In this document: in pieces, positions 19,228 to 35,593 of the stretch
Numbering within the stretch: position 1 is the stretch's first letter
Layout: each line of letters starts with the position of its first letter
Assembly (NCBI GenBank): GCA_903920005.1
Contig: CAIXKI010000126.1
Location: forward strand, 1-37,136
Reading direction: 5' to 3'
DNA from: an uncultured delta proteobacterium
GTDB taxonomy: Bacteria; Bdellovibrionota_C; UBA2361; OMII01
DNA: 37,136 bases
Program-made: the position numbers and the translations under genes
The notes under the pieces: generated by a model
Seen by the model: only the letters and a program-made list of their open reading frames with translations
Told to the model about the DNA's origin: nothing
Databases searched by the model: none

Positions 19228-19567
19228 AAGGAACTCCCACTTGTAAGCAAAGTGCTACCCATATTCAGAGCCTCATACTACTTCTGCGCGTGCAGCGACT
19301 TAACACTTTTGTACGAGGCTTATAATTTCAGTTTTCAGTGTGAAGTGCCCCTTGTACGGGGCCTCTTCCTTAAAACTCACCGATGACGCCTAAGGCTTAT
19401 CGTCTCTCGTTCGAGCGGTAATCATAACCCATCGACCAATACTCGGCTTCTCAAGCCGGTCCTCTCGGTAATATTAGTGGAACTTGTGAGCAGTTTTGAT
19501 GGGTTAAAAAATGGGTCGTACGCTCAATCGGACATTTGCATCTCGGACACAGGTAGAATCCCTATCT
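19228..19567 (+). repeat. dispersed repeat family, copy A (left inverted repeat of Lrp unit)
   Basis: aggaactcccacttgtaagcaaagtgctacccatattcagagcctcatactacttctgcgcgtgcagcg...caccgatgacgcctaaggcttat...tcggcttctcaagccggtcctct...ttttgatgggttaaaaaatgggtcgtacgctc; imperfect reverse complement of copy B. Confidence 0.9.
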
Positions 19568-19585
19568 CAAAAAGTCTCGGAGGCT

Positions 19586-20530
19586 CTACACGCCGGAGCG
19601 TTTCACGATGACTTTTTCGCGGATGTACATAGAGTGCTTGAGCACTCGTTTTCCGAGGGCCATTACAAGCGCGTCCTCCACTTCAAGCAGCTCCCGCAAC
19701 GACTCGGCGGCTATCAAGATTTTGAAGTCCCAATTTCCGACTCCTGAGATTAATCCCTCAACATTCGGGTTCTTCGCGCATATCGATACGATACCGTCTT
19801 CTATTTCGCGAGTACGAGACCTCAGCTGAATCACAAGTTGAGCCTGAAAGAGATTTAGGGGGAGACGAAAGAAGTACCCTTCATCAGATATCACCCCGTC
19901 CGCGCGCAATCTCTCGAATCGGTATTTAACGGTCGACGCAGACACACCAAGCTTCGTTGCCAAACTCCCAAAAGAACTCACGTTCGGCGACCCGAAAGCG
20001 TGGATAATTCTGCGATCCAGCAGATCAATAGAGACGTTTTGCGACACGGTGGTAAAGTGCGCGATCGGCGACGAAGAAAACGTTTCCGTGAGACATCGCA
20101 ACCCCCAATGCATTACCTCGCCTTCGACCGCTATAACTACATTCCGCGGAGTCGTTCCAACTTCATCACCCAAGGCTCTAAACAACTTCCACATCGTCGA
20201 ATAGTCCTGAACGGCAAGCGTCATTTCGTACTTCTGTGCACCGATATTTTTGGTGAGCCATGCTACCTCCTCTTTATTTTTGAGAAACTCCTCCCCTTTT
20301 CTCGCTCGCGACGCTGGAAGGTCAAAAAAAAGATTAAAGATCTGGTATCCGAGGGCACGTTGATTCACCAAAATCGATTTTTCAAGACTCTTTGACTCAA
20401 CCAATTTATCGAGCTGATATCGTACCGAGTGTGGGCGAACGCGGAGACGCTTCGCAAGTTGCGAAACTGTCACATTGCCCTGTGTGGTTAGTATTCCGAC
20501 GATCTTTTTCTGCAACTCATTACCATCCAT
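19586..20530 (-). CDS. Lrp/AsnC-type regulator with two HTH plus ligand-domain modules
   Basis: N-terminal ELQKKIVGILTTQGNVTVSQLAKRLRVRPHSVRYQLDKLVE and second LLDRRIIHAFGSPNVSSFGSLATKLGVSASTVKYRFERLRADGVISDE, each followed by an AsnC-like alpha/beta segment. Confidence 0.78.
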   Translation of the reverse strand: MDGNELQKKIVGILTTQGNVTVSQLAKRLRVRPHSVRYQLDKLVESKSLEKSILVNQRALGYQIFNLFFDLPASRARKGEEFLKNKEEVAWLTKNIGAQKYEMTLAVQDYSTMWKLFRALGDEVGTTPRNVVIAVEGEVMHWGLRCLTETFSSSPIAHFTTVSQNVSIDLLDRRIIHAFGSPNVSSFGSLATKLGVSASTVKYRFERLRADGVISDEGYFFRLPLNLFQAQLVIQLRSRTREIEDGIVSICAKNPNVEGLISGVGNWDFKILIAAESLRELLEVEDALVMALGKRVLKHSMYIREKVIVKRSGV

Positions 20531-20572: not shown

Positions 20573-20945
20573 TCATAAGGAATCTTCTTGTGTCGGAGAT
20601 ACAAGAATTCTACCGAGCGTACGCCCCATTTTTTAACACATCAAAACTACTCATACGTTCCACTAGTATAACCTAGAGGACCGGCTTGAGAAGCCGAGTA
20701 TTGATCGATGGTTTATCGATGACCGCTCGAACGAGAGACTATAAGCCTTAGGCGTCATCGGTGAATTTCAAGGAAGAGGCTTATAATAACGGGGGCTTGA
20801 GAAACGAAGCCCCTAAAGACTCAAGCGGACCGCCTCGAGAACTGAAAGCATAAGCCTCATACAAAGGGGTTAAAACGCTGCACGCGCAGAAGTGGTATGA
20901 GGCTCTGAATATGGCAAGCACTTTACTCATACGTAGGTGTTCCTC
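20573..20945 (-). repeat. dispersed repeat family, copy B (right inverted repeat of Lrp unit)
   Basis: Reverse complement begins GAGGAACACCTACGTATGAGTAAAGTGCTTGCCATATTCAGAGCCTCATACCACTTCTGCGCGTGCAGCG... and ends ...TTTTGATGTGTTAAAAAATGGGGCGTACGCTC. Confidence 0.9.
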
Positions 20946-21144: not shown

Positions 21145-21732
21145 ATGCGTATGAAGCCGCTTGATTCCGAATCAGCCAACATCGACCCTGAGATCTCAGT
21201 GTTCCTTCTTCTCTGCGCAGAACATCAGCGACTCGTGGAAGGGATTGCGGTGAGATGTCGCGAGGTAGTTCCTTCAGATCCCTTTATCCCCCACATGACA
21301 ACATATTTCGGTCTAGGAGCCCCGGTCCTCGGTAGGCAGGGTCTCGTTGAGCGTATTGCTCACGTGACGGGGCCTGTCTCTCAACAGATCGATGGGATTG
21401 GCGGTGAATCAAGGTTTTGGAGAGCCTCCTACATAGCGCTCCGCGGGGGACCTCAGCTTGAGGCGATAGATGCCGCTCTTAAACGAGAGATTACTCCCTA
21501 TGGGCCCTATTCCCTCTTCCCGCACCTTTCTCTCGTCTACTCGAACGAGATAACGAGTTTTCAACAGGCGACTTGTAGACTCATTGCTGAGAGCGCCCTG
21601 CGGGAGGCTAGAGTTAGTGAGCTGATTTTTGATAGAGTCGGTCTCTTCCAACGCCACTCTCCTGACGGGGCATGGGAAGACGTGAGCCGCTGGCGCGAGA
21701 TATGCTCCGCATCTTTTCACGGCGCGCGGTGA
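21145..21732 (+). CDS. 2H phosphoesterase superfamily protein (LigT/CPDase-like)
   Basis: Two HxT/S motifs in expected spacing: FIPHMTTYFG and LFPHLSLVYS. Confidence 0.72.
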   Translation: MRMKPLDSESANIDPEISVFLLLCAEHQRLVEGIAVRCREVVPSDPFIPHMTTYFGLGAPVLGRQGLVERIAHVTGPVSQQIDGIGGESRFWRASYIALRGGPQLEAIDAALKREITPYGPYSLFPHLSLVYSNEITSFQQATCRLIAESALREARVSELIFDRVGLFQRHSPDGAWEDVSRWREICSASFHGAR

Positions 21733-21750
21733 GGAGCAGACAGGATAATC

Positions 21751-22629
21751 ATGATGGTTATGAAAAAGAATAGCATGGTCGATAACGCAACGCTGTCGAC
21801 AGAGCGTTCTCAAGGGCTCTCTCGAAAGCTTGAAGCGTGCCTTATGACACTCGCGCCAACGCTTATGGCGAACGTCCCCGAAAACGCGAACTTTTCTCAG
21901 AACCCCGATAGCGTTGAAGAGCACCACGTCGATTGGCACCAATACGGCATCATCACGCACACGAAAAAGGTTCGCGAGGCGTATACCAGCGAGCTGATGC
22001 CGCTTCTTCAGTCCTGGGGCCTTGGTGAAAAGGTGGCAGCCCACCTCTCACAACGCGCCCCGTCAGGATGGTCCCGTGGTGAATTACTAGAAGTCAGCAT
22101 TCCTGTGCACGATCTTGGAAAGTTTTCTCGAACGCACTATTGGAAGGATGGCAAGGCCTATCCCGATTATGTGGGGCATGAGGCACTCTCGGAGAAGATC
22201 GTTCTTACACAGAATACAGTAAAGGAGATCTTAGCCAGCGGTGGTTTAACTCCAGCAGACATTGCGCACGTTGCGGCACTTGCCGGCCTGCACTTCGAAC
22301 TTGGAAAGGTTCGAGATGTTGCGCGAAGTCGGGAAGGATACAATCTTGCGTTCTCAAAGAGCGTTAGCGCTCGCGAAATCTTCGATGAATTACAAGCTCG
22401 CCATCCGGAGTATGCGCCTGAAATCGGCCTCTGGTACATCGTAGATTCGATGGGAAAGATCTCTCTACGTTGCGACGCCGATACGGATGAGGCGCTCGCC
22501 GCTTCTCGCCCGCAGCGAGAGGCGGAGATCGCTTCATCAGGCCTACGCCCCACGCTCGTAAACGCGTTGATGCAGTTCCCGGTAAACCTGCACGTAGCGC
22601 GAGAATACCTCCAGGCGGTTCTCAAATAG
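21751..22629 (+). CDS. HD-domain phosphohydrolase
   Basis: HHVDWHQYGIITHTKKVREAY...SIPVHDLGKFSRTHYW...GHEALSEKIV...AGLHFELGKVRD: H...HD...H arrangement. Confidence 0.75.
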   Translation: MMVMKKNSMVDNATLSTERSQGLSRKLEACLMTLAPTLMANVPENANFSQNPDSVEEHHVDWHQYGIITHTKKVREAYTSELMPLLQSWGLGEKVAAHLSQRAPSGWSRGELLEVSIPVHDLGKFSRTHYWKDGKAYPDYVGHEALSEKIVLTQNTVKEILASGGLTPADIAHVAALAGLHFELGKVRDVARSREGYNLAFSKSVSAREIFDELQARHPEYAPEIGLWYIVDSMGKISLRCDADTDEALAASRPQREAEIASSGLRPTLVNALMQFPVNLHVAREYLQAVLK

Positions 22630-22744
22630 TCGCTTTCTGTCGCTTTTAGCTCTGATCGGAACACCCCAATCAGAGGGGCAAAACCAAGTCGGGCACCCGT
22701 TTTGCTTACCACGGACAACACAGCTACCATGCGGTCGCCTAGAC

Positions 22745-23827
22745 TTGAAATGGAGTATTCCGGACATGGATCCACGCACCGCTTCAGATCCCGCTCTCAG
22801 TAATCAAACAGCCCAACAACTGACCGAACAATTGAAACCGCCGACCCGAACAGGCGAAGCTGTTACTGGCTCCGAAGAGTCATTTCAGGCAAAGATCCTT
22901 ACCGTGAACGGTGGGACTGAAGTAGCGAAGGTCTACGAGCGAATCCACCTCTTCGATCTCGTTGATTTGCGCGATGAGGCTCAACGCGACGCTCTCATGA
23001 ATCGTGAAGTGGCATGCCTCAACGCGCTCTCTCCCTCCATGAATGCACGCGTAGAGACAGTGATGTTAGACGACGGGAGCACTGAGAAGGCCATTGTGAT
23101 GAAGCGGCATGACGCACAAGGGTTTCTCTTTAGACGGATAGCTAACGAAGAGACTCTAAACCCAGAGCAGCTCGGAAAATTAGCTGAGACGATTGCGAAC
23201 TTCCACTTTAATCCGGAATCGTGCCCTGTTCAGACCGAAGGCTTAATCAATTTTCTGACAGAGCTCTTGGCAACTGAGAAGAATCTTCTCTCCGCTCGCG
23301 TGGCGAATGATCCCAAACTGCTTGACAAGGTTCAGCGTTGGTTTGCGACCATGGACGAATTCATCGCTGACAACGCCGACAAGTTCGATGTTGTTGGACA
23401 GTATCTCCGCGAGCCGGTACTCGGACACGGCGACCTCAAATCACTCAACATGGTGTTTGACGAAGCGGGAGGTGTGCACGTTCTTGACGTTGCGCCGTTG
23501 ACGCTTTGGCAGGTAAATACTCGCCGAATGGACGCGATGTTCTTCGCCGCGGAGATGAGGTTAGTCGGACGAGAGGCGGAGGCAACCGCCTTCTTTGAAC
23601 GGTATGACCAGGAGTACAGAGATCGACAAGCTAATGCGGGACGGAGATACAACAACGACGATGTCGTAGGCAAGACGGTAGAGCACCTCGATACGATATC
23701 GGAGTTCTATCGGTACATCATCTTTTTCCGTCTCACCTTCTTGGGTGTAAACCCTGAGCGAGCACCGCGTTGTACGGAACTTCTCGATAAGGTGGTGGAT
23801 CGCGCAGCCAAGAGCCTATACCAATAA
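22745..23827 (+). CDS. aminoglycoside-phosphotransferase-like small-molecule kinase
   Basis: Catalytic-loop-like VLGHGDLKSLNMVFDEAGGVHVLDVAPLTLWQVNTRRMDAMFFAAEM (HGDxxxxN...D). Confidence 0.75.
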   Translation: MKWSIPDMDPRTASDPALSNQTAQQLTEQLKPPTRTGEAVTGSEESFQAKILTVNGGTEVAKVYERIHLFDLVDLRDEAQRDALMNREVACLNALSPSMNARVETVMLDDGSTEKAIVMKRHDAQGFLFRRIANEETLNPEQLGKLAETIANFHFNPESCPVQTEGLINFLTELLATEKNLLSARVANDPKLLDKVQRWFATMDEFIADNADKFDVVGQYLREPVLGHGDLKSLNMVFDEAGGVHVLDVAPLTLWQVNTRRMDAMFFAAEMRLVGREAEATAFFERYDQEYRDRQANAGRRYNNDDVVGKTVEHLDTISEFYRYIIFFRLTFLGVNPERAPRCTELLDKVVDRAAKSLYQ

Positions 23828-23839
23828 AGGGCAGTTCAT

Positions 23840-25216
23840 ATGGGAGCTAACGACCTTTCAGTGAGTGTTCAATGTGGTCGGGCAACCCGTGGTCAAGCAG
23901 ATGCGGCACTCGGTCTCTCCGATCTCGCCCCGACGGGAGTTCAGGAGGCTAGGCTCTCCCTTCTTCGCCCAGTAACAACATCAGACATACGAGACGCGCT
24001 TAAGGATTTCGATATCTCGTTCATTTGGCGCTCGGATAAGTATGAGCCTGAGCGACGGGGAATAAGAACCTGCCTGAGCCAGCGAGACGGTCTCGGTTCA
24101 GATCTTAAGATGACCTATTCAGCAGCGTATCTTGCGGTTACCACTGGATCCACTCTGTACCTCCCAAGTGAGGGGGACCCAACTTTGATGGACTACCTCC
24201 AACGAAGCGGTCTACTTCCGGGAGGATTCGTCGCGAGCGGAAACTTCGACGAAATGATGAAGAAGGCCACTGCCAGAGGGAAGAAAGTGTATTCCGTGGA
24301 CGATCTCGGAGAACACCGTGACGCTATATCAGCGGTTTCCCAAGAGGCGATGGAGTTCGTAAATAAGAAATCGAATGTTGCTATCCTTGCCGGTCCGTAC
24401 GCCCCACCAGAGGAGATTATCTCGGTTGAGAGTCTCTCTGGGGATATCTATGACCGCATGAAGCCATCAAGCGGGATCCTGTATCTCAAGACGTGTACCG
24501 GAGAAGGAGCAGGTATCGGCGTTATCCGTGTTACGAGCGCTCAAGAGATGGACGCCACGATCGCTAAGCTACAGGCAACACGTCCTTCCGACGAGTCGAT
24601 CATCGTTCAGCCCGAGATTAAGGGTAAAAACTTTCGATTCCAAATCTTCCTCAATCCGAACAAACTCGACTCCGTTCCCGTGGTATCGCTTACGGAGCAG
24701 ATCGTTGCGGATGATGGGATCCAATACACGGGGAGTCGCCCCATTCCAGTCACTTCGGCTAATCTCGCCATTATCGGCGATGCAATTGTAGAGTTCGCTC
24801 AAAACATCCGCTCTCGTTTTCCTCACGCCGTAGGGTTCGCATCGTGCGATTTCTTCCGAACGGAGAGTGGTAAGACGGTCTTATTCGACCCGGCGCTTCG
24901 TCCGACCGGCAACACTGCGTCATTTATGATTCGACTCAACCTTGAGGAGCGAGGGGTGGCGGCTATTGTCGCAGACTATAAGCGAATCAAGTTGAAGGCT
25001 CCGGGCCTACCATTTTCAGAAATTGAGAGAGTTTTGGGCCCCCTCGTTGACGCTCAAGCTGTGCTCAAGAGTGGCGTTGGTGTGCTGCCATGGGGATACA
25101 ACCAGTATCAGGGAGAAGGCACCTTCATGATCGTGGGGCGTGATCAGGTGCAGGTCGATCTCTTATGGGAAGGCGTCCAGAACACTCTTCGCGAGAATTT
25201 CCCACCGCAGGCGTAA
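23840..25216 (+). CDS. ATP-grasp ligase-like protein
   Basis: Central GILYLKTCTGEGAGIGVIRVTS, IIVQPEIKGKNFRFQIFL and late VGFASCDFFRTESGKTVLFDPALRPTGNT follow ATP-grasp order; 12 nt after the kinase gene. Confidence 0.72.
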   Translation: MGANDLSVSVQCGRATRGQADAALGLSDLAPTGVQEARLSLLRPVTTSDIRDALKDFDISFIWRSDKYEPERRGIRTCLSQRDGLGSDLKMTYSAAYLAVTTGSTLYLPSEGDPTLMDYLQRSGLLPGGFVASGNFDEMMKKATARGKKVYSVDDLGEHRDAISAVSQEAMEFVNKKSNVAILAGPYAPPEEIISVESLSGDIYDRMKPSSGILYLKTCTGEGAGIGVIRVTSAQEMDATIAKLQATRPSDESIIVQPEIKGKNFRFQIFLNPNKLDSVPVVSLTEQIVADDGIQYTGSRPIPVTSANLAIIGDAIVEFAQNIRSRFPHAVGFASCDFFRTESGKTVLFDPALRPTGNTASFMIRLNLEERGVAAIVADYKRIKLKAPGLPFSEIERVLGPLVDAQAVLKSGVGVLPWGYNQYQGEGTFMIVGRDQVQVDLLWEGVQNTLRENFPPQA

Positions 25217-25218
25217 CC

Positions 25219-26223
25219 CTACCGAAGAAGTTCGTTCGCCGCCGTTCGCAGTGCGCCTTTTAAGAGCTGAACGTTTTCCACGAGCTGAAGTTGGAGACGA
25301 CTACGCACGTCGTTGGGCGTTTGTTCCGTGAAAAAGGTAGCTAGAGTTGAGTCGTCAATCTTTGCCAGGCTCTCAGCCAGCCGCGCCGTGAGCGCAAGCT
25401 GTTTTAGTCCTGAACCTGAAAGAGTCCATAAAGGGGCCATGCTCCCCTCGGCGACCAATGAGGTGTGGCGCATCGACGCTGCGATAGCCTCGCGACGACT
25501 CGTCGGGAGGTCAGAGCCATCAAAAGAATCGCGGTGAGTTTGTTGGGCTATCACGCTGGCAATGGCGCTTGACGAAACCGGGCCAATGGCGAGAAGGAGC
25601 GCTGAGTCTACGATGTCGAATTTGTTCATATCAGAACCACGACCGAGACCGAGCTTCTCGCACAGGATAACTTCTCGCGAATTTAACTTTACCCCTTCGA
25701 ATGGCGCTCTCGGCGTCCTTGTCGGGTCCTGTGATGCCTCTAGCCCAAATTCGTACATATAATGACTCTGGTCCGGCGCAAAGCGACATATCGGAATTAG
25801 GTCAAGTTCAACATAGGCCTCAGCGAGCTTCATCTTTCCACGCCCTATCTTTGACCCGAAGGTGATGTGGCGATACTTCTCAAAGCTTTCGGTGAAGGTA
25901 GCAACCTGTTCACTCGCAAGGGTCAGTATTGCTAGGTGCTTGTTAGAACCAATGGGGTCAGATGTACACGTCCAGTCGATGTCGAGCGAAACGGGACGAA
26001 GCGCTAGGTGTTTTGCGTTATCACCAAGGTGTAGAAGGGTGTGATAATAACATGCAACCCCTCCCTTGACGTAGACCTCTTCATTAAGACGCGCAGCGAT
26101 AGCGCCGAGGCTTTTCAAAGCCTCTTCCACCACATGCGGCATCGGGTGTTGAACGGGAGCTAGCGCATCGCCAACGTTTTTTTGGGGGGAGGCTGAAAAC
26201 GGAGGCATTCGTCCCTCGCTCAT
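25219..26223 (-). CDS. nucleotidyltransferase-like (AbiEii/MNT-like) protein
   Basis: VYVKGGVACYYHTLLHLGDNAKHLALRPVSLDIDWTC (KGG...DID layout) and later LNSREVILCEKLGLGRG. Start at ATG 26223 supported by ATGA overlap with the upstream ORF. Confidence 0.5.
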   Translation of the reverse strand: MSEGRMPPFSASPQKNVGDALAPVQHPMPHVVEEALKSLGAIAARLNEEVYVKGGVACYYHTLLHLGDNAKHLALRPVSLDIDWTCTSDPIGSNKHLAILTLASEQVATFTESFEKYRHITFGSKIGRGKMKLAEAYVELDLIPICRFAPDQSHYMYEFGLEASQDPTRTPRAPFEGVKLNSREVILCEKLGLGRGSDMNKFDIVDSALLLAIGPVSSSAIASVIAQQTHRDSFDGSDLPTSRREAIAASMRHTSLVAEGSMAPLWTLSGSGLKQLALTARLAESLAKIDDSTLATFFTEQTPNDVRSRLQLQLVENVQLLKGALRTAANELLR

Positions 26224-26483
26224 CTTGATAGCCAATAACCGATAGTGTGCCCGCACTCTACACTCAATTCAACAGCGGCTCCTTGGAAAACGGTGCCAAT
26301 GAAGCCGGCTTTCCCATGATTATATCGGTAGTCCGCGTAGAGGAGGTTAGCGTTCGTGGCGTATTCAGAGAAAAGGAAGAAAATAGGTATCCGTTTGCCA
26401 GGAGAACGTTTTGCGATGACTTTTGAGGTAATGCACCGAAACTCCTCAGACTGGTGCGAGGGACAAGCCTCTATATCATCCAT
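26220..26483 (-). CDS. small hypothetical protein translationally coupled to the NTase-like gene
   Basis: 87 aa; its TGA (26220-26222) overlaps the ATG of the next gene (26221-26223). Confidence 0.5.
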   Translation of the reverse strand: MDDIEACPSHQSEEFRCITSKVIAKRSPGKRIPIFFLFSEYATNANLLYADYRYNHGKAGFIGTVFQGAAVELSVECGHTIGYWLSR

Positions 26484-27045: not shown

Positions 27046-27399
27046 ATGGCGCTTAAGATATTCGGAACATTTTTGATTTTGTGTGCCTTTACGGTTAACA
27101 CACCCAGCATGGCCGAGGAACCGGCGCACCTTATGATTGATCGCGCATATTTTTACTGCGAAAAAGATCATGCGATGCGTGGGGGTATATTTGGCAAGGG
27201 CCCAACTGTAAGTTTTGGTCCCTCAAGTTCCACTTGCCGTCGCCCAGAATGGAAGCGGCTGACTCACAGCGAATTTATGGATCAAGCTACAGACAAATTT
27301 TCAATAAATTGGAACAAGGAACTTGTTTGGTGGAGAACGAATTATTCGACACCAGGCGCCATAACCAAAGACGGAAGCGGACAGAAGACCGCGAAATGA
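27046..27399 (+). CDS. small secreted hypothetical protein
   Basis: Signal-peptide-like MALKIFGTFLILCAFTVNTPSMAEE; no family recognised. Confidence 0.6.
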   Translation: MALKIFGTFLILCAFTVNTPSMAEEPAHLMIDRAYFYCEKDHAMRGGIFGKGPTVSFGPSSSTCRRPEWKRLTHSEFMDQATDKFSINWNKELVWWRTNYSTPGAITKDGSGQKTAK

Positions 27400-30491: not shown

Positions 30492-30699
30492 GAGGAACAC
30501 CTACTTGTGAGTAAAGCGCTACCCCTATTTAGGCCCCACACTACTTCTACGCTTCTAGCGACTTATCCCTTTTGCATGAGGTCTATAGTTCCAGTTCTCA
30601 GGCTGAAGTTTGAGGCGTTCCGCTTCAAGTCTTCTGGCCTTCGTTTCTCAAGTCTCCGTTAGTAGACTTCTCTTCCTTGAAATTTACCGATGGCCCCTT
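30492..30699 (+). repeat. dispersed repeat family, copy C (3' truncated)
   Basis: gaggaacacctacttgtgagtaaagcgctacccctatttaggccccacactacttct...cttccttgaaatttaccgatgg. Confidence 0.92.
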
Positions 30700-30714
30700 C
30701 TCTGGTCCCCCTCT

Positions 30715-30809
30715 CTGGTACAGGGCAACTCTCGATCTCACTGACTTATCCGCACAACAAGCGAAAACCACACAGAAAAATGAGCCGGTCCAGAGTTGCC
30801 CTGTACCAG
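30715..30809. mobile_element. 95-bp MITE-like element, copy 1
   Basis: 18-bp terminal inverted repeats CTGGTACAGGGCAACTCT / AGAGTTGCCCTGTACCAG; no coding capacity. Confidence 0.8.
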
Positions 30810-31048
30810 TGGAGTCAACCAGTGGAGTCACGAAACTATTGTCTGAGCATGCGTGCGAGCGCCCGACACCCACGGGTCGGAAATGTGAGAACCTCCTGGT
30901 GGGATGCATTCAGAATCCGCTGACGGCCTATCTGCCGAGGGCTCGTTCTTCGGCTCTTCGTACCTGTTCCTGCAGCCCCATATGGCGAACCTCTTCCTCC
31001 CTTTCAGTCGCGAGGCAGTGTCATTTTTGTCGCCTCGACACCACAGAT

Positions 31049-32272
31049 CTACTTCACATCCCTCGCCCTGTGCGACACCGTAAGCCGAACATGACCATCG
31101 ACTCCCTTAACCTTCACATCGAACCCCGCGTCCCGGATCTCTGCTAGAGCTTCTCCAAGTGAGCCTGGCCCGCTACCTTTGACGACCTTATTTACACATG
31201 CTGGGTGGAGCCTCATAGCCAACTGGACACCGGACAAGAAGCCACCAAACAAGCCGATAGTCGCCCCCATTGATCCAATAACAATGCCCGCCATCAGGCT
31301 CCCTTCCACCCACGCCCCGCAAAGAAACCCTACTGCCGAAAACGAGACTATTGAGATCAACTTCGCCGACTCTAGCAAATTGGAATATTGCTTGTGAGGT
31401 ATAATCTTGAATGGGTAATCCTTATTAATAACAACTAAGGAACCATCTCGCCCTCTCGAAAGTTCCGTCGTACTTAGCTCGCCTCGACACAACTTCTCAG
31501 CATCGTGTCTCACCTGTGTTACCAGCGACTTCAATGCCTCAATCTGCACCTGCGATGCATTCGACGGCAGGCCAAGACGTTTTGCTGTGTCAAGCTCCGC
31601 ATCCGCCCGTTGCAAAGCGCACGCTAGTCGCGGGTTGGCAGCCGCTTGTATATCCGTGATTGGAGAGCGATCGCCCTCCTGAACAGTGCTCGCATGCTTC
31701 GCACCCAATGCGGCCAAAACTTTAGGCGCTACGCTTTCGCCTCCCTCGTAATGAGTGACCTGAACTACCACCCCGTCAGAGAGGAACCCTTGGGAGATTC
31801 TTACGTGACACAGAGGCTTCTGGTCTCCAGCTCTCGTAGTATCTGAGATGTCATATGCGTACACGGGACATTTCTCTCGCAACCATGCAACGAGAGAGAG
31901 CTGGCTTAACCACCGAGAGATAGCCCCACCACCCAGCGGGCGCGACGAGACCTGCTCGACGGTGGTGCCGGTATCACTTGCATATCTCTCCAATTTTCTC
32001 TCTAGCTCATTCACCGCATCAACGAACGACTGTCGTATCGCTGGTATATTGGTACCTGTTAGGGCTCTGCCGCCTAATTTCAATGCGACAGGGAGTCGTT
32101 CGACGTGACCAACGTGCCGCAGCGCAAACGCTTCACGACTCAGCTCCTCTGATGGCCGGCGGGGACCAACATCGGCTTCCGGCACTCGACCGCGCGCCGC
32201 TGTCGCAGTTTTGTCGACTACATCAGGCGTATCCTCGGCAACCTCTCTTCGTAGCTGTTCGTGACAACCCAT
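31049..32272 (-). CDS. hypothetical membrane protein (paralogue 1)
   Basis: 407 aa; C-terminal two-TM region followed by GPGSLGEALAEIRDAGFDVKVKGVDGHVRLTVSHR, resembling the divergent gene at 32827. Confidence 0.6.
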   Translation of the reverse strand: MGCHEQLRREVAEDTPDVVDKTATAARGRVPEADVGPRRPSEELSREAFALRHVGHVERLPVALKLGGRALTGTNIPAIRQSFVDAVNELERKLERYASDTGTTVEQVSSRPLGGGAISRWLSQLSLVAWLREKCPVYAYDISDTTRAGDQKPLCHVRISQGFLSDGVVVQVTHYEGGESVAPKVLAALGAKHASTVQEGDRSPITDIQAAANPRLACALQRADAELDTAKRLGLPSNASQVQIEALKSLVTQVRHDAEKLCRGELSTTELSRGRDGSLVVINKDYPFKIIPHKQYSNLLESAKLISIVSFSAVGFLCGAWVEGSLMAGIVIGSMGATIGLFGGFLSGVQLAMRLHPACVNKVVKGSGPGSLGEALAEIRDAGFDVKVKGVDGHVRLTVSHRARDVK

Positions 32273-32502
32273 ACGAGAACTCCTGATAGGGTGAAATTCT
32301 TTTGGTCACCCGCATAGTATGATGATAACGAGGAGCGAATTCTTAATCCAAAGGATCGCTACCGATCGCCCGGGTTTCTACTTTAAGTAGACTACTAAAG
32401 ACCTTCGTTTTTTCTACATCGGATAGCCACGTACAAGACGCAGCTCACTACACCTATCTGGACTTATAAGAGACTATGAATCGAATGTTCATCTCCCCCT
32501 CT

Positions 32503-32597
32503 CTGCTACAGGGCAACTCTCGATCTCACTGACTCATCCGCACAACAAGCGAAAACCACACAGAAAAATGAGCCGGTCCAGAGTTGCCCTGTACCAG
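32503..32597. mobile_element. 95-bp MITE-like element, copy 2
   Basis: Differs from copy 1 at two positions (CTGCTACA vs CTGGTACA; gactcatcc vs gacttatcc), same orientation. Confidence 0.8.
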
Positions 32598-32826
32598 TGG
32601 AGTTAGATTGATTTAACTATCCATATTCCCCTCTCATTTCTCCTCGGTTCGATCCTGGTCGTTATCTGCGATCTTCTCGGAAGGATCGTGCGTCCACCAT
32701 TCGAGGTTCCCGCCGGAGTCTTCACTGCGATCGTTGGTGGGCCGGTTGTTATCCTCTTGGTGGTGCTCTGGTATCGGCGGTTCAGGTAAAGGGCCGCCTA
32801 ACCCCAATTTCCACTTAACGTAGAAA

Positions 32827-33846
32827 TTGGCGTGGATCGTTGCGGATCGCGCGACTAGCGCCGAGGAAACTCGTACCCTCTGGTCGGACTGTGAAACACA
32901 CGTTGGTGTGCCACATTGTTCGGGGGATATGATGATAGAGGGAACTGGGCCAAGCAATCAGGATAAGGGCAGACAGGCTGTCGGAGTGGATGGAGCGACG
33001 GTGGCGAGTGGAGTGGACACTCAGTTCCCCCGTAGGCCATCGGATGAACTCAGCGGCTCGAGCCTTCGTGCTGATTCGAGTGCTGCTCCAGTCGGGCAAG
33101 AGCACTCGGCACCTTCTGCGACTGCGACCGCCAACGTTTCTTCACGTCCCCCCCGTAGCCCCCTAGCCGAGACATTGGATAGGAAAGATCAAGAGATCCG
33201 AGCTGAAGAGGCTAGGCAAGCAAGTGACCGGGCGAAATTCGGACTTTCCCCGCGCGCCTCCTCAGCAGCGGTGTACGACATGATCGAGCTTGTGGGCAAA
33301 ATGGAGAAAGACCTCCGCAAGTTGTTCGATGGAAAGGAAGACAGCGCGAGCTTCGAGAGATCTCCTGATGGATCGGTCACTGTGTTCCACGGCTTCTATG
33401 ACCTGCTGCACGGAACGCTTCGGCAGCCGGAGAGTACGACTTTTTCCAGTGCATGCAAGACGATATGCACATTTGCTGCTGTATTAATCATTTTTAGCAC
33501 AACCACGATAGCGGTGATGGAGGCCACGTATCATTCGCTCCTTGCCATTTTTGGAGAGATGGATCCGGCCCTAGGATGGGTGGTCAGCTATGGGGCTGGC
33601 ATATTCGTTGCACCACGTCTCGCAACGGAAGGGCTGGAGTGGGTGAGATCCGTTGTGGGGTTCTCACAAGCTAAAACTTTTCTTAACCGAGCACTCCGAG
33701 TAAAAGAGCCCGGTTCCCTTGGCGGCGTTATCGAACAGATCCATGCCAACGAGGGGTTCCGGGGAGAGATCTCTATTTCTAAACCGTCTATATTTCTAAA
33801 CCGTATACACCTGAAGGTCACTTACACACCGAAAGCAGACGCGTAG
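32827..33846 (+). CDS. hypothetical membrane protein (paralogue 2; true start may be downstream)
   Basis: 339 aa; Ser/Pro/Ala-rich N-terminal part, RSPDGSVTVF, two TM segments, EPGSLGGVIEQIHANEGF. Confidence 0.6.
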   Translation: MAWIVADRATSAEETRTLWSDCETHVGVPHCSGDMMIEGTGPSNQDKGRQAVGVDGATVASGVDTQFPRRPSDELSGSSLRADSSAAPVGQEHSAPSATATANVSSRPPRSPLAETLDRKDQEIRAEEARQASDRAKFGLSPRASSAAVYDMIELVGKMEKDLRKLFDGKEDSASFERSPDGSVTVFHGFYDLLHGTLRQPESTTFSSACKTICTFAAVLIIFSTTTIAVMEATYHSLLAIFGEMDPALGWVVSYGAGIFVAPRLATEGLEWVRSVVGFSQAKTFLNRALRVKEPGSLGGVIEQIHANEGFRGEISISKPSIFLNRIHLKVTYTPKADA

Positions 33847-34202: not shown

Positions 34203-35396
34203 ATGAACACCGATCTCTCAAATATCGAACCGAATCGGGATAAGAAACCTGATTCACAAATCCTCGCCCGTGGCGAGAGCGCTCTCACGTTTTTCGGAGA
34301 AATCAGCCTCGTTCAGGCAAGGGGCTTGATTCTGCCGCTGATACCATCAGCAACAGCTTTCTTTGACTATCTGGCATCCGTTACGATCTCTGCGCAGATT
34401 GTTCTGAGCCGCGAAGCTCCCCCGGTATTGATTGCTCATGGAGACTTTCAGAACACGAGCGGCCCCTTCGTTACCATCATGAGCAAGGACAGCAGTCGCG
34501 ACCATTTCGATATCCTTAGCTTCTCGCTGGACGAGACATCGCTATGTGCCGTGATCCGCACAAGAGACGGAGGGACCGGTGGGGGCACGAGAATAGAGCC
34601 GACGGAGATTCATAGCTGGTTTGCAGATGCGGAAAACTATCGGAATCTTATTGAAATCTTCAATGAGGAACTCAATCGAAAACCCCAGGAAGCAGAGGCC
34701 TGCTACCCGACCGCAAACGCGGAACAACTGTTAGTCGGCTTCATTAACCCCTTAGAGCACTATCCGACGTATGTTTTACCGGTTCTCGGAACACCAGCGG
34801 GGTTCGCCTGTCCATTCTTCAAAGAGCGGGGTACCCCGCCCCAATATCTACCGATTTCTGGCCGAACCTCATTTGTGCCCCTTTCGGCAGGACTGTCGAA
34901 CTCAACTTTCCCATTTAACCCTGAGACGGACTGGCTATTTGCGGCGTCCCCTTCGGAATTGATCTTTTTTGATCACTCCTTACACAGTGCACTCTGCACA
35001 GCGATCTGTCTGGCGGCGGAAGCAGACGCGGGCATCGATGGCTTGGAGCGTGTTTCGGAATTCTCTTCGTCCTCCGGCGATATCGGTCTGCACCTGCGTG
35101 TGCTCCAGGCGTACTATCGACACTGGACATCTGGGAATAGCGAAGACGAAGGATCTCTGAAATATATAAGCGATCATTACAAGCGTAATGAAAGGCAGGC
35201 CGTTTCTGACGGTTTTGTTCCCGAAGATGTTTCTCTTATCCCCGAGACGCTTGAAGAGTTGCTGAACCTCACGCAGTTTCCGGACTTGAAGCCGTTTGAT
35301 ACATCATTTTTCCCCCTCGTATCCGTTACAAGCGACCGGGGAACATTTATTTCGCGGTGGCCAGAGGACTTCAGGAACCGTTTACTGGCTTGGTAA
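34203..35396 (+). CDS. hypothetical protein
   Basis: 397-aa ORF with balanced composition and no competing ORF of similar length; no family recognised. Confidence 0.6.
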   Translation: MNTDLSNIEPNRDKKPDSQILARGESALTFFGEISLVQARGLILPLIPSATAFFDYLASVTISAQIVLSREAPPVLIAHGDFQNTSGPFVTIMSKDSSRDHFDILSFSLDETSLCAVIRTRDGGTGGGTRIEPTEIHSWFADAENYRNLIEIFNEELNRKPQEAEACYPTANAEQLLVGFINPLEHYPTYVLPVLGTPAGFACPFFKERGTPPQYLPISGRTSFVPLSAGLSNSTFPFNPETDWLFAASPSELIFFDHSLHSALCTAICLAAEADAGIDGLERVSEFSSSSGDIGLHLRVLQAYYRHWTSGNSEDEGSLKYISDHYKRNERQAVSDGFVPEDVSLIPETLEELLNLTQFPDLKPFDTSFFPLVSVTSDRGTFISRWPEDFRNRLLAW

Positions 35397-35441: not shown

Positions 35442-35563
35442 GAGGAACACCTACTTGTGAGTAAAGCGCTACCCCTATTTAGGCCCCACACTACTTCTGC
35501 GCCTCTAGCGACTTATCACTTTTGTATGAGGTCTATAGTTCCAGTTCTCAGGCTGAAGTTTGA
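35442..35563 (+). repeat. dispersed repeat family, copy D (truncated, ends in long hairpin)
   Basis: gaggaacacctacttgtgagtaaagcgctacccctatttaggccccacactacttctgcgcctctagcgac..., same orientation as and nearly identical to copy C. Confidence 0.92.
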
Positions 35564-35593
35564 AGCGGAACGCCTCAAACTTCAGCCTGAGAA
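35545..35593. repeat. perfect 19-bp-arm hairpin
   Basis: TTCTCAGGCTGAAGTTTGA-agcggaacgcc(t)-TCAAACTTCAGCCTGAGAA; no following T tract. Confidence 0.9.

Follow-up and report, generated by a model that had tools for sequence, protein, structure and literature searches.

The DNA analyzed here (the window) is a contig of 37,136 nucleotides (nt) from an uncultured delta proteobacterium (GenBank assembly GCA_903920005.1, contig CAIXKI010000126.1). Between positions 21145 and 25216 of its forward strand, four co-directed genes are arranged head-to-tail and encode proteins resembling, in order, 2H phosphoesterases, HD-superfamily phosphohydrolases, APH-family kinases and ATP-grasp ligases. Our preferred interpretation, to which we assign a probability of roughly 0.45, is that these genes would be co-transcribed as one unit and would share a lineage-specific pathway, independent of nonribosomal peptide synthetases, that generates an amino-acid or peptide conjugate by way of phosphorylated intermediates. 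In the order and direction of reactions that we propose, the ATP-grasp enzyme would activate a carboxylate as an acyl-phosphate and couple it to an amine, presumably of an amino acid or short peptide, and the APH-like kinase would phosphorylate a hydroxyl on a building block or on the putative product. The HD hydrolase, joined in the window copy by the 2H protein, might then remove or open phosphoesters in the course of maturation, turnover or reversal of phosphorylation. If this interpretation is correct, a poorly known phylum would possess a compact and thiotemplate-free means of making an amide or peptide metabolite, and with four genes the cluster is small enough for expression and assay in one piece.

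Predicted structure of the ATP-grasp ligase

Sequence profiles recognize the ligase-like protein weakly (Dala_Dala_lig_C of Pfam, 5e-4; LdmS profile NF047900, 8.4e-6), and the subfamily to which it belongs is barely reached by current curated models. A structural model built from an alignment with six relatives has a predicted template modeling score (pTM) of 0.83 and a mean predicted local distance difference test score (pLDDT) of 82. Comparison of this model with the PDB using Foldseek returned LdmS (7r8q, 2.1e-16), the Streptomyces ATP-grasp peptide ligase 8ynd (1.7e-14), 3wvq (2.8e-14), which we take, together with 3wvr, to be PGM1, and BesA (8yi6, 3.4e-12), with L-amino-acid ligases, GAR synthetase and PurK ranking next. 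These matches confirm the ATP-grasp assignment made in an initial annotation of the sequence, and the modeled protein appears similar over its whole length to characterized amino-acid and peptide ligases. Because Foldseek places it among such enzymes, ATP-driven amide bond formation is the likeliest reaction predicted by the model. The residues K217, E222, Q257, D337, D350, R354, G357 and N358 are invariant in the ligase family.

Recurrence of three genes at a second locus

The distribution of the cluster genes was surveyed in 46 genomes of the phylum, all from a single class. The HD gene is confined to the genome from which the window derives, as are the APH and 2H genes save for weak matches in one distant genome, and the ligase gene is present in the window's genome and in one congener (G009). 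Within the window's genome, the HD, APH and ATP-grasp genes recur jointly at a second locus, where the encoded proteins are 33–46% identical to those of the window (HD, 46% and 43% for its two halves; APH, 39%; ATP-grasp, about 34%), and from which the 2H and nucleotidyltransferase (NTase) genes are absent. This locus is represented by two contigs. Contig C85 (4073 bp) opens with the N-terminal half of the HD gene, after which come the APH gene in opposite orientation, the remains of a decayed alpha/beta-hydrolase and the ATP-grasp gene; near the end of the contig lies a tandem array of a 26-nt unit (L015 3913–4057). Contig C149 (3633 bp) opens with the C-terminal half of the HD gene, which precedes a copy of a 411-bp repeated element lying 17 nt past it, a HAD-like gene, an ATP-grasp remnant and an alpha/beta-hydrolase gene. 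The remnant (L016 2066–2500) has sustained a large internal deletion that leaves its N- and C-terminal parts in a single open frame. Because the two HD halves are complementary, corresponding to query residues 21–149 and 159–291, respectively, the contigs are probably neighbors separated by a short gap in the assembly.

Judged from sequence, this recurrence is the best evidence that the HD, APH and ATP-grasp proteins may function together. By the initial annotation, a failure of the genes to co-occur in other genomes would count against its reading; they are absent as a set from the sibling genomes, whereas three of them do reappear jointly at this second site. In a tree of eight ligases, the window copy and the second-locus copy are not paired. 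Thus, the gene set was not simply duplicated in the recent past, and an older divergence or separate acquisition appears to fit better.

Phosphoesterase and kinase motifs

The 2H protein matches PF13563 with E=7.7e-6 and 26.5 bits, 0.5 bit below the cut-off of 27, and matches the CPDase profile marginally (0.076). It contains the two HxT/S motifs that define the 2H superfamily, in the form of H50-M-T and H127-L-S. For the full-length HD protein, no Pfam family match was detected; similarity to Cas3-HD is weak (PADLOC, 4e-4), with Pfam Cas3_HD scoring 0.007 for the HD paralog. The protein displays the metal-ligand pattern T-H / HDLGK / GHE / LH / VD..GK (H70, H120-D121-LGK, GHE142, LH180, D232), and this pattern is preserved in the paralog at the second locus. 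The APH-like protein exceeds the PF01636 cut-off (E=1.4e-5, 25.5 bits against 23.2) and carries the catalytic loop HGDLKSLN and an LDVAP motif. Its paralog retains the catalytic residues, and HGDLK..N, LD.AP and a C-terminal RLTFLGV.PER are common to both proteins.

Arrangement of the cluster and its convergent neighbor

Gaps of 18 nt (21733–21750), 115 nt and 12 nt (23828–23839) separate the four genes; the second of these presumes that the APH-like gene starts at TTG 22745, and would be 136 nt if translation began at ATG 22766. A scan of the plus-strand gaps of the cluster yielded zero terminator-like sites, and promoter-like sites around the cluster occur at chance level. Catalytic motifs were found in all five proteins, those of the NTase-like one resembling AbiEii motifs with altered spacing, the window open reading frames (ORFs) are full length, and their GC content at third codon positions (GC3) is close to that of groEL. 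The four co-oriented genes and the gap lengths reported in the initial annotation match the ORFs, and the enzyme classes and operon-like layout that it proposed also hold. Its upper limit of 26483 does not hold for the fifth gene, which encodes the NTase-like protein, is convergent with the others, and lies 2 nt past the ligase stop. This gene starts at GTG 26256 or ATG 26223, and the interval 26220–26483 constitutes a separate ORF of 87 amino acids (aa) that is read in a different frame and matches no family.

The NTase protein matched no profile, including Pfam AbiEii, and its single-sequence structural model is poor (pLDDT 32). It contains the motifs KGG (64–66), D92-I-D94, VELD, EKL..R and K-x-D-x-x-D, which resemble the four AbiEii motifs with altered spacing. 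No family match to an AbiEi-like antitoxin was seen next to it, its neighbors being the ligase gene and the unmatched ORFs 26220–26483 and 27046–27399. Weakly matching relatives in three congeners each make up the C-terminal half of a longer protein that begins with a P-loop kinase domain, guanylate-kinase-like in one case; these fusions are 650–768 aa long (L018 5584–10418, L021 604–5425, L020 8961–11264). Those of L018 and L021 stand behind genes for glycerol-3-phosphate dehydrogenase-like and HAD-IIA phosphatase-like proteins, forming an uncharacterized operon in these congeners. The convergent NTase gene is most likely a neighbor of the proposed transcription unit rather than a component of it.

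Ligase relatives in other genomes

A pattern-based search of GTDB species genomes revealed at least six loci carrying relatives of the ligase, one of which is that of G009; this count is a lower bound, since such a search reaches only relatives with short conserved stretches. At three loci from myxobacterial or deltaproteobacterial metagenome-assembled genomes (MAGs), the ligase relative comes after a second ATP-grasp gene (L023 124–2809, L026 to 9248, L027 6470–9248). The upstream protein is of the PF13535 type, as identified by Pfam for L023 and L027, and that of L026 has the same terminal sequence. A tandem ATP-grasp pair is what one would expect where small amides or peptides are made, and these loci are candidates for small peptide or amide pathways. 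Together with the nearest folds of the window ligase (LdmS, 3wvq, 8ynd and BesA), they favor the peptide-like small molecule that was among the products initially suggested for the cluster. A search for the second ATP-grasp gene in the window's genus, conducted without a positive control, detected none. Alpha/beta-hydrolase genes recur near members of the ligase family, although their subfamilies differ: one follows the ligase relative in L023 and L026, and in G009 a Ser_hydrolase-type member stands directly after the ligase gene. Upstream of the G009 ligase is a gene for an Lrp-like protein with two helix-turn-helix (HTH) domains that is split between frames in the assembly.

Evaluation of alternative explanations

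Several observations weigh against the proposed pathway. The full gene set is known from a single MAG. Two contigs, joined here by reconstruction, make up the second locus, and its genes are ordered and oriented differently from those of the window. In other phyla, neither HD nor APH genes neighbor the ligase relatives, which indicates that the ligase can work without them. The window ligase is also unusually divergent, with an end branch of 2.2 in the tree of eight sequences, and its chemistry should not be assumed because D350 occupies a position that is Glu in many ATP-grasp enzymes and the Asn of the E-x-N metal motif is Ala or Gly in the family. The analysis turned up no transporter and no candidate substrate, product or precursor peptide, and no gene for such a peptide was seen near the window ligase. 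Literature searches found nothing relevant to an ATP-grasp/APH/HD cluster and no papers on LdmS. A broader version of the proposal is unlikely, namely that an undescribed natural-product or signaling pathway of the phylum is built around the HD, APH and ATP-grasp proteins; it would make a phosphorylated amino-acid or peptide conjugate, exist as two diverged versions in each genome, and be governed by the expanded, element-associated two-HTH regulators of the genus.

The APH and HD proteins might instead constitute a reversible phosphorylation switch or a resistance or salvage pair, with the ligase making something else and the genes brought together by a tendency of the region to accumulate accessory genes. 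This would agree with the several 411-bp elements around the cluster, with a stretch downstream of groEL that differs in every sibling, with the dissimilar gene order and orientation of the two loci, and with ligase relatives that occur elsewhere without HD and APH. However, we consider it somewhat doubtful in view of the recurrence of HD, APH and ligase genes together at a second locus, the HD gene being found nowhere else in the genomes surveyed. The occurrence in a single genome, the internally deleted ATP-grasp copy and decayed alpha/beta-hydrolase at the second locus, and the very long branch of the window ligase could also be the marks of a horizontally acquired gene set that has decayed or is non-functional, but such a fate is quite improbable for window ORFs that are all full length, retain their catalytic motifs and have a GC3 near that of groEL.

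Cyclic phosphates or RNA ends are the substrates of some 2H and HD enzymes, and the motifs of the NTase resemble those of AbiEii. These features would be in keeping with RNA-end repair or nucleotide-signal defense, an option raised in the initial annotation, in which the 2H protein would open 2′,3′-cyclic ends, the HD protein would remove phosphates, the kinase and ligase would reseal the RNA, and the NTase would modify tRNA. Yet the ligase fold is that of peptide and amino-acid ligases rather than RNA ligases, the kinase is of the APH type rather than a polynucleotide kinase, and the cluster genes include neither an RNA ligase nor a polynucleotide kinase. PADLOC 2023 revealed no match to a defense component besides the generic Cas3-HD (4e-4) and HTH similarities, PHROGs returned no match for the five proteins, and no relatives were recovered from viral contigs (ligase, APH, HD and NTase queries), plasmids (all five queries) or phages (NTase query); with the AbiEi partner also missing, we regard a role in RNA repair or defense as highly improbable. 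The least probable of the explanations considered casts the convergent NTase as a toxin that its antitoxin, the APH-like kinase, would neutralize by phosphorylation, on the model of the Rv1044–Rv1045 pair of Mycobacterium tuberculosis. The KGG, DID, EKL..R and K-x-D-x-x-D motifs of the NTase would suit such a toxin, and neutralization of an NTase toxin by phosphorylation has been published (PMC7205606). But the two genes point toward each other and are separated by the ligase gene, an NTase is absent from the second HD/APH/ligase locus, and the sibling NTases are fused to P-loop kinases, two of the three standing beside glycerol-3-phosphate dehydrogenase-like and HAD genes in a setting that looks metabolic.

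Genomic setting and a dispersed 411-bp element

The cluster resides in a variable region, as the DNA that follows groEL is different in each congener examined, including G005, in which the groESL DNA is 99% identical. An element of about 411 bp is found in 10 of the 12 genomes of the genus and as 23 matching pieces in the window's genome; the window holds four of these (Table 1), one of them 200 nt upstream of the cluster. Inverted copies with arms of about 340 nt bracket an AsnC/Lrp-like gene, in accordance with the repeat-flanked regulator noted initially. Alignment of 26 near-complete copies shows that the element ends are sharp, with AAGGAACaCcTACTTGTG...CACAAGTAGATTCcTT as terminal inverted repeats, and that there is an internal direct repeat of ACTTGTGAGTA; in the same alignment neither an evident target duplication nor a covarying RNA fold was found, and no coding capacity was seen. 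A structured RNA was considered and provisionally rejected, given that no Rfam match reaches the gathering score (sub-threshold matches lie only nearby, none inside), no consensus fold is supported, and changes in the terminal inverted repeats are uncompensated. From its sequence, the element seems to be mobile or recombining DNA of a non-autonomous type.

Genes commonly adjacent to the element are mainly Lrp-like (four places), with P-loop ATPase-like genes near three copies. The two-HTH AsnC/Lrp-like family is strongly expanded in the genus, with up to 11 matches per genome, and some members are near element copies. Another direct repeat, of 110 nt and 98% identity, occurs at 30706–30815 and 32494–32603, and is a second, younger dispersed repeat because a similar reading frame exists on contig C169. 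The element-rich part of the window also contains three large ORFs (31049–32272, 32827–33846 and 34203–35396) without a Pfam match above the cut-off, two of which have hydrophobic stretches.

Table 1. Positions of the cluster genes and nearby features in the window
Feature	Position	Strand	Basis or remark
Two-HTH AsnC/Lrp-like regulator gene	19586..20530	-	Bracketed by inverted element copies
2H phosphoesterase-like gene, 195 aa	21145..21732	+	PF13563; HxT H50, HxS H127
HD-superfamily metal-dependent phosphohydrolase-like gene, 292 aa	21751..22629	+	Motif pattern; weak Cas3-HD matches
APH-like small-molecule kinase gene, 353 aa from ATG 22766	22745..23827	+	PF01636; HGDLKSLN; LDVAP
ATP-grasp amino-acid/peptide ligase-like gene, 458 aa	23840..25216	+	Foldseek; LdmS profile; invariant residues
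Distant AbiEii-like NTase gene, 345 aa from GTG 26256 (or ATG 26223)	25219..26256	-	Motifs
411-bp element piece	19229-19570	+	
411-bp element piece	20575-20944	-	
411-bp element piece	30493-30697	+	
411-bp element piece	35443-35584	+	

Comparison with known systems

The window kinase shares HGDxKxxN and a downstream Asp with the APH family (PF01636), but is far from all named aminoglycoside kinases, scoring 13 bits with the APH(3′) profile against a cut-off of 205. For AbiEii/DUF1814 toxins, the published motifs include hGGx15DhD, KLxAxxxR and +DxxD, and the KGG, DID, EKL..R and K-x-D-x-x-D of the window NTase resemble motifs I–IV (PMC3985639); the window protein differs in its spacing of x25 rather than 15 and in having sibling relatives fused to a P-loop kinase domain. 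The tandem pair loci of L023, L026 and L027 encode direct relatives of the window ligase (31–33% identity), but include the second, PF13535-type ATP-grasp gene, and no HD, APH or 2H gene was found in them.

LdmS, the L-aspartate--L-methionine ligase of Staphylococcus aureus (SAOUHSC_02373, 7r8p/7r8q), provides both the best fold match (TM 0.62/0.72) and the best profile match to the window ligase. The two proteins have a common ATP-grasp layout in which DLNFRQNGST is aligned to DPGLRPTGNT, yet they are 14–16% identical, and at 24.8 bits against the NF047900 cut-off of 475 the window ligase is not a member of that family. To our knowledge, LdmS is not part of any HD/APH/2H gene set. Although identity is 13–14% and the kinase and HD partners differ, the peptide and amino-acid ligases 3wvq/3wvr, the Streptomyces enzyme 8ynd and BesA (8yi6) likewise resemble the window ligase in fold along their whole length (TMq 0.58–0.63).

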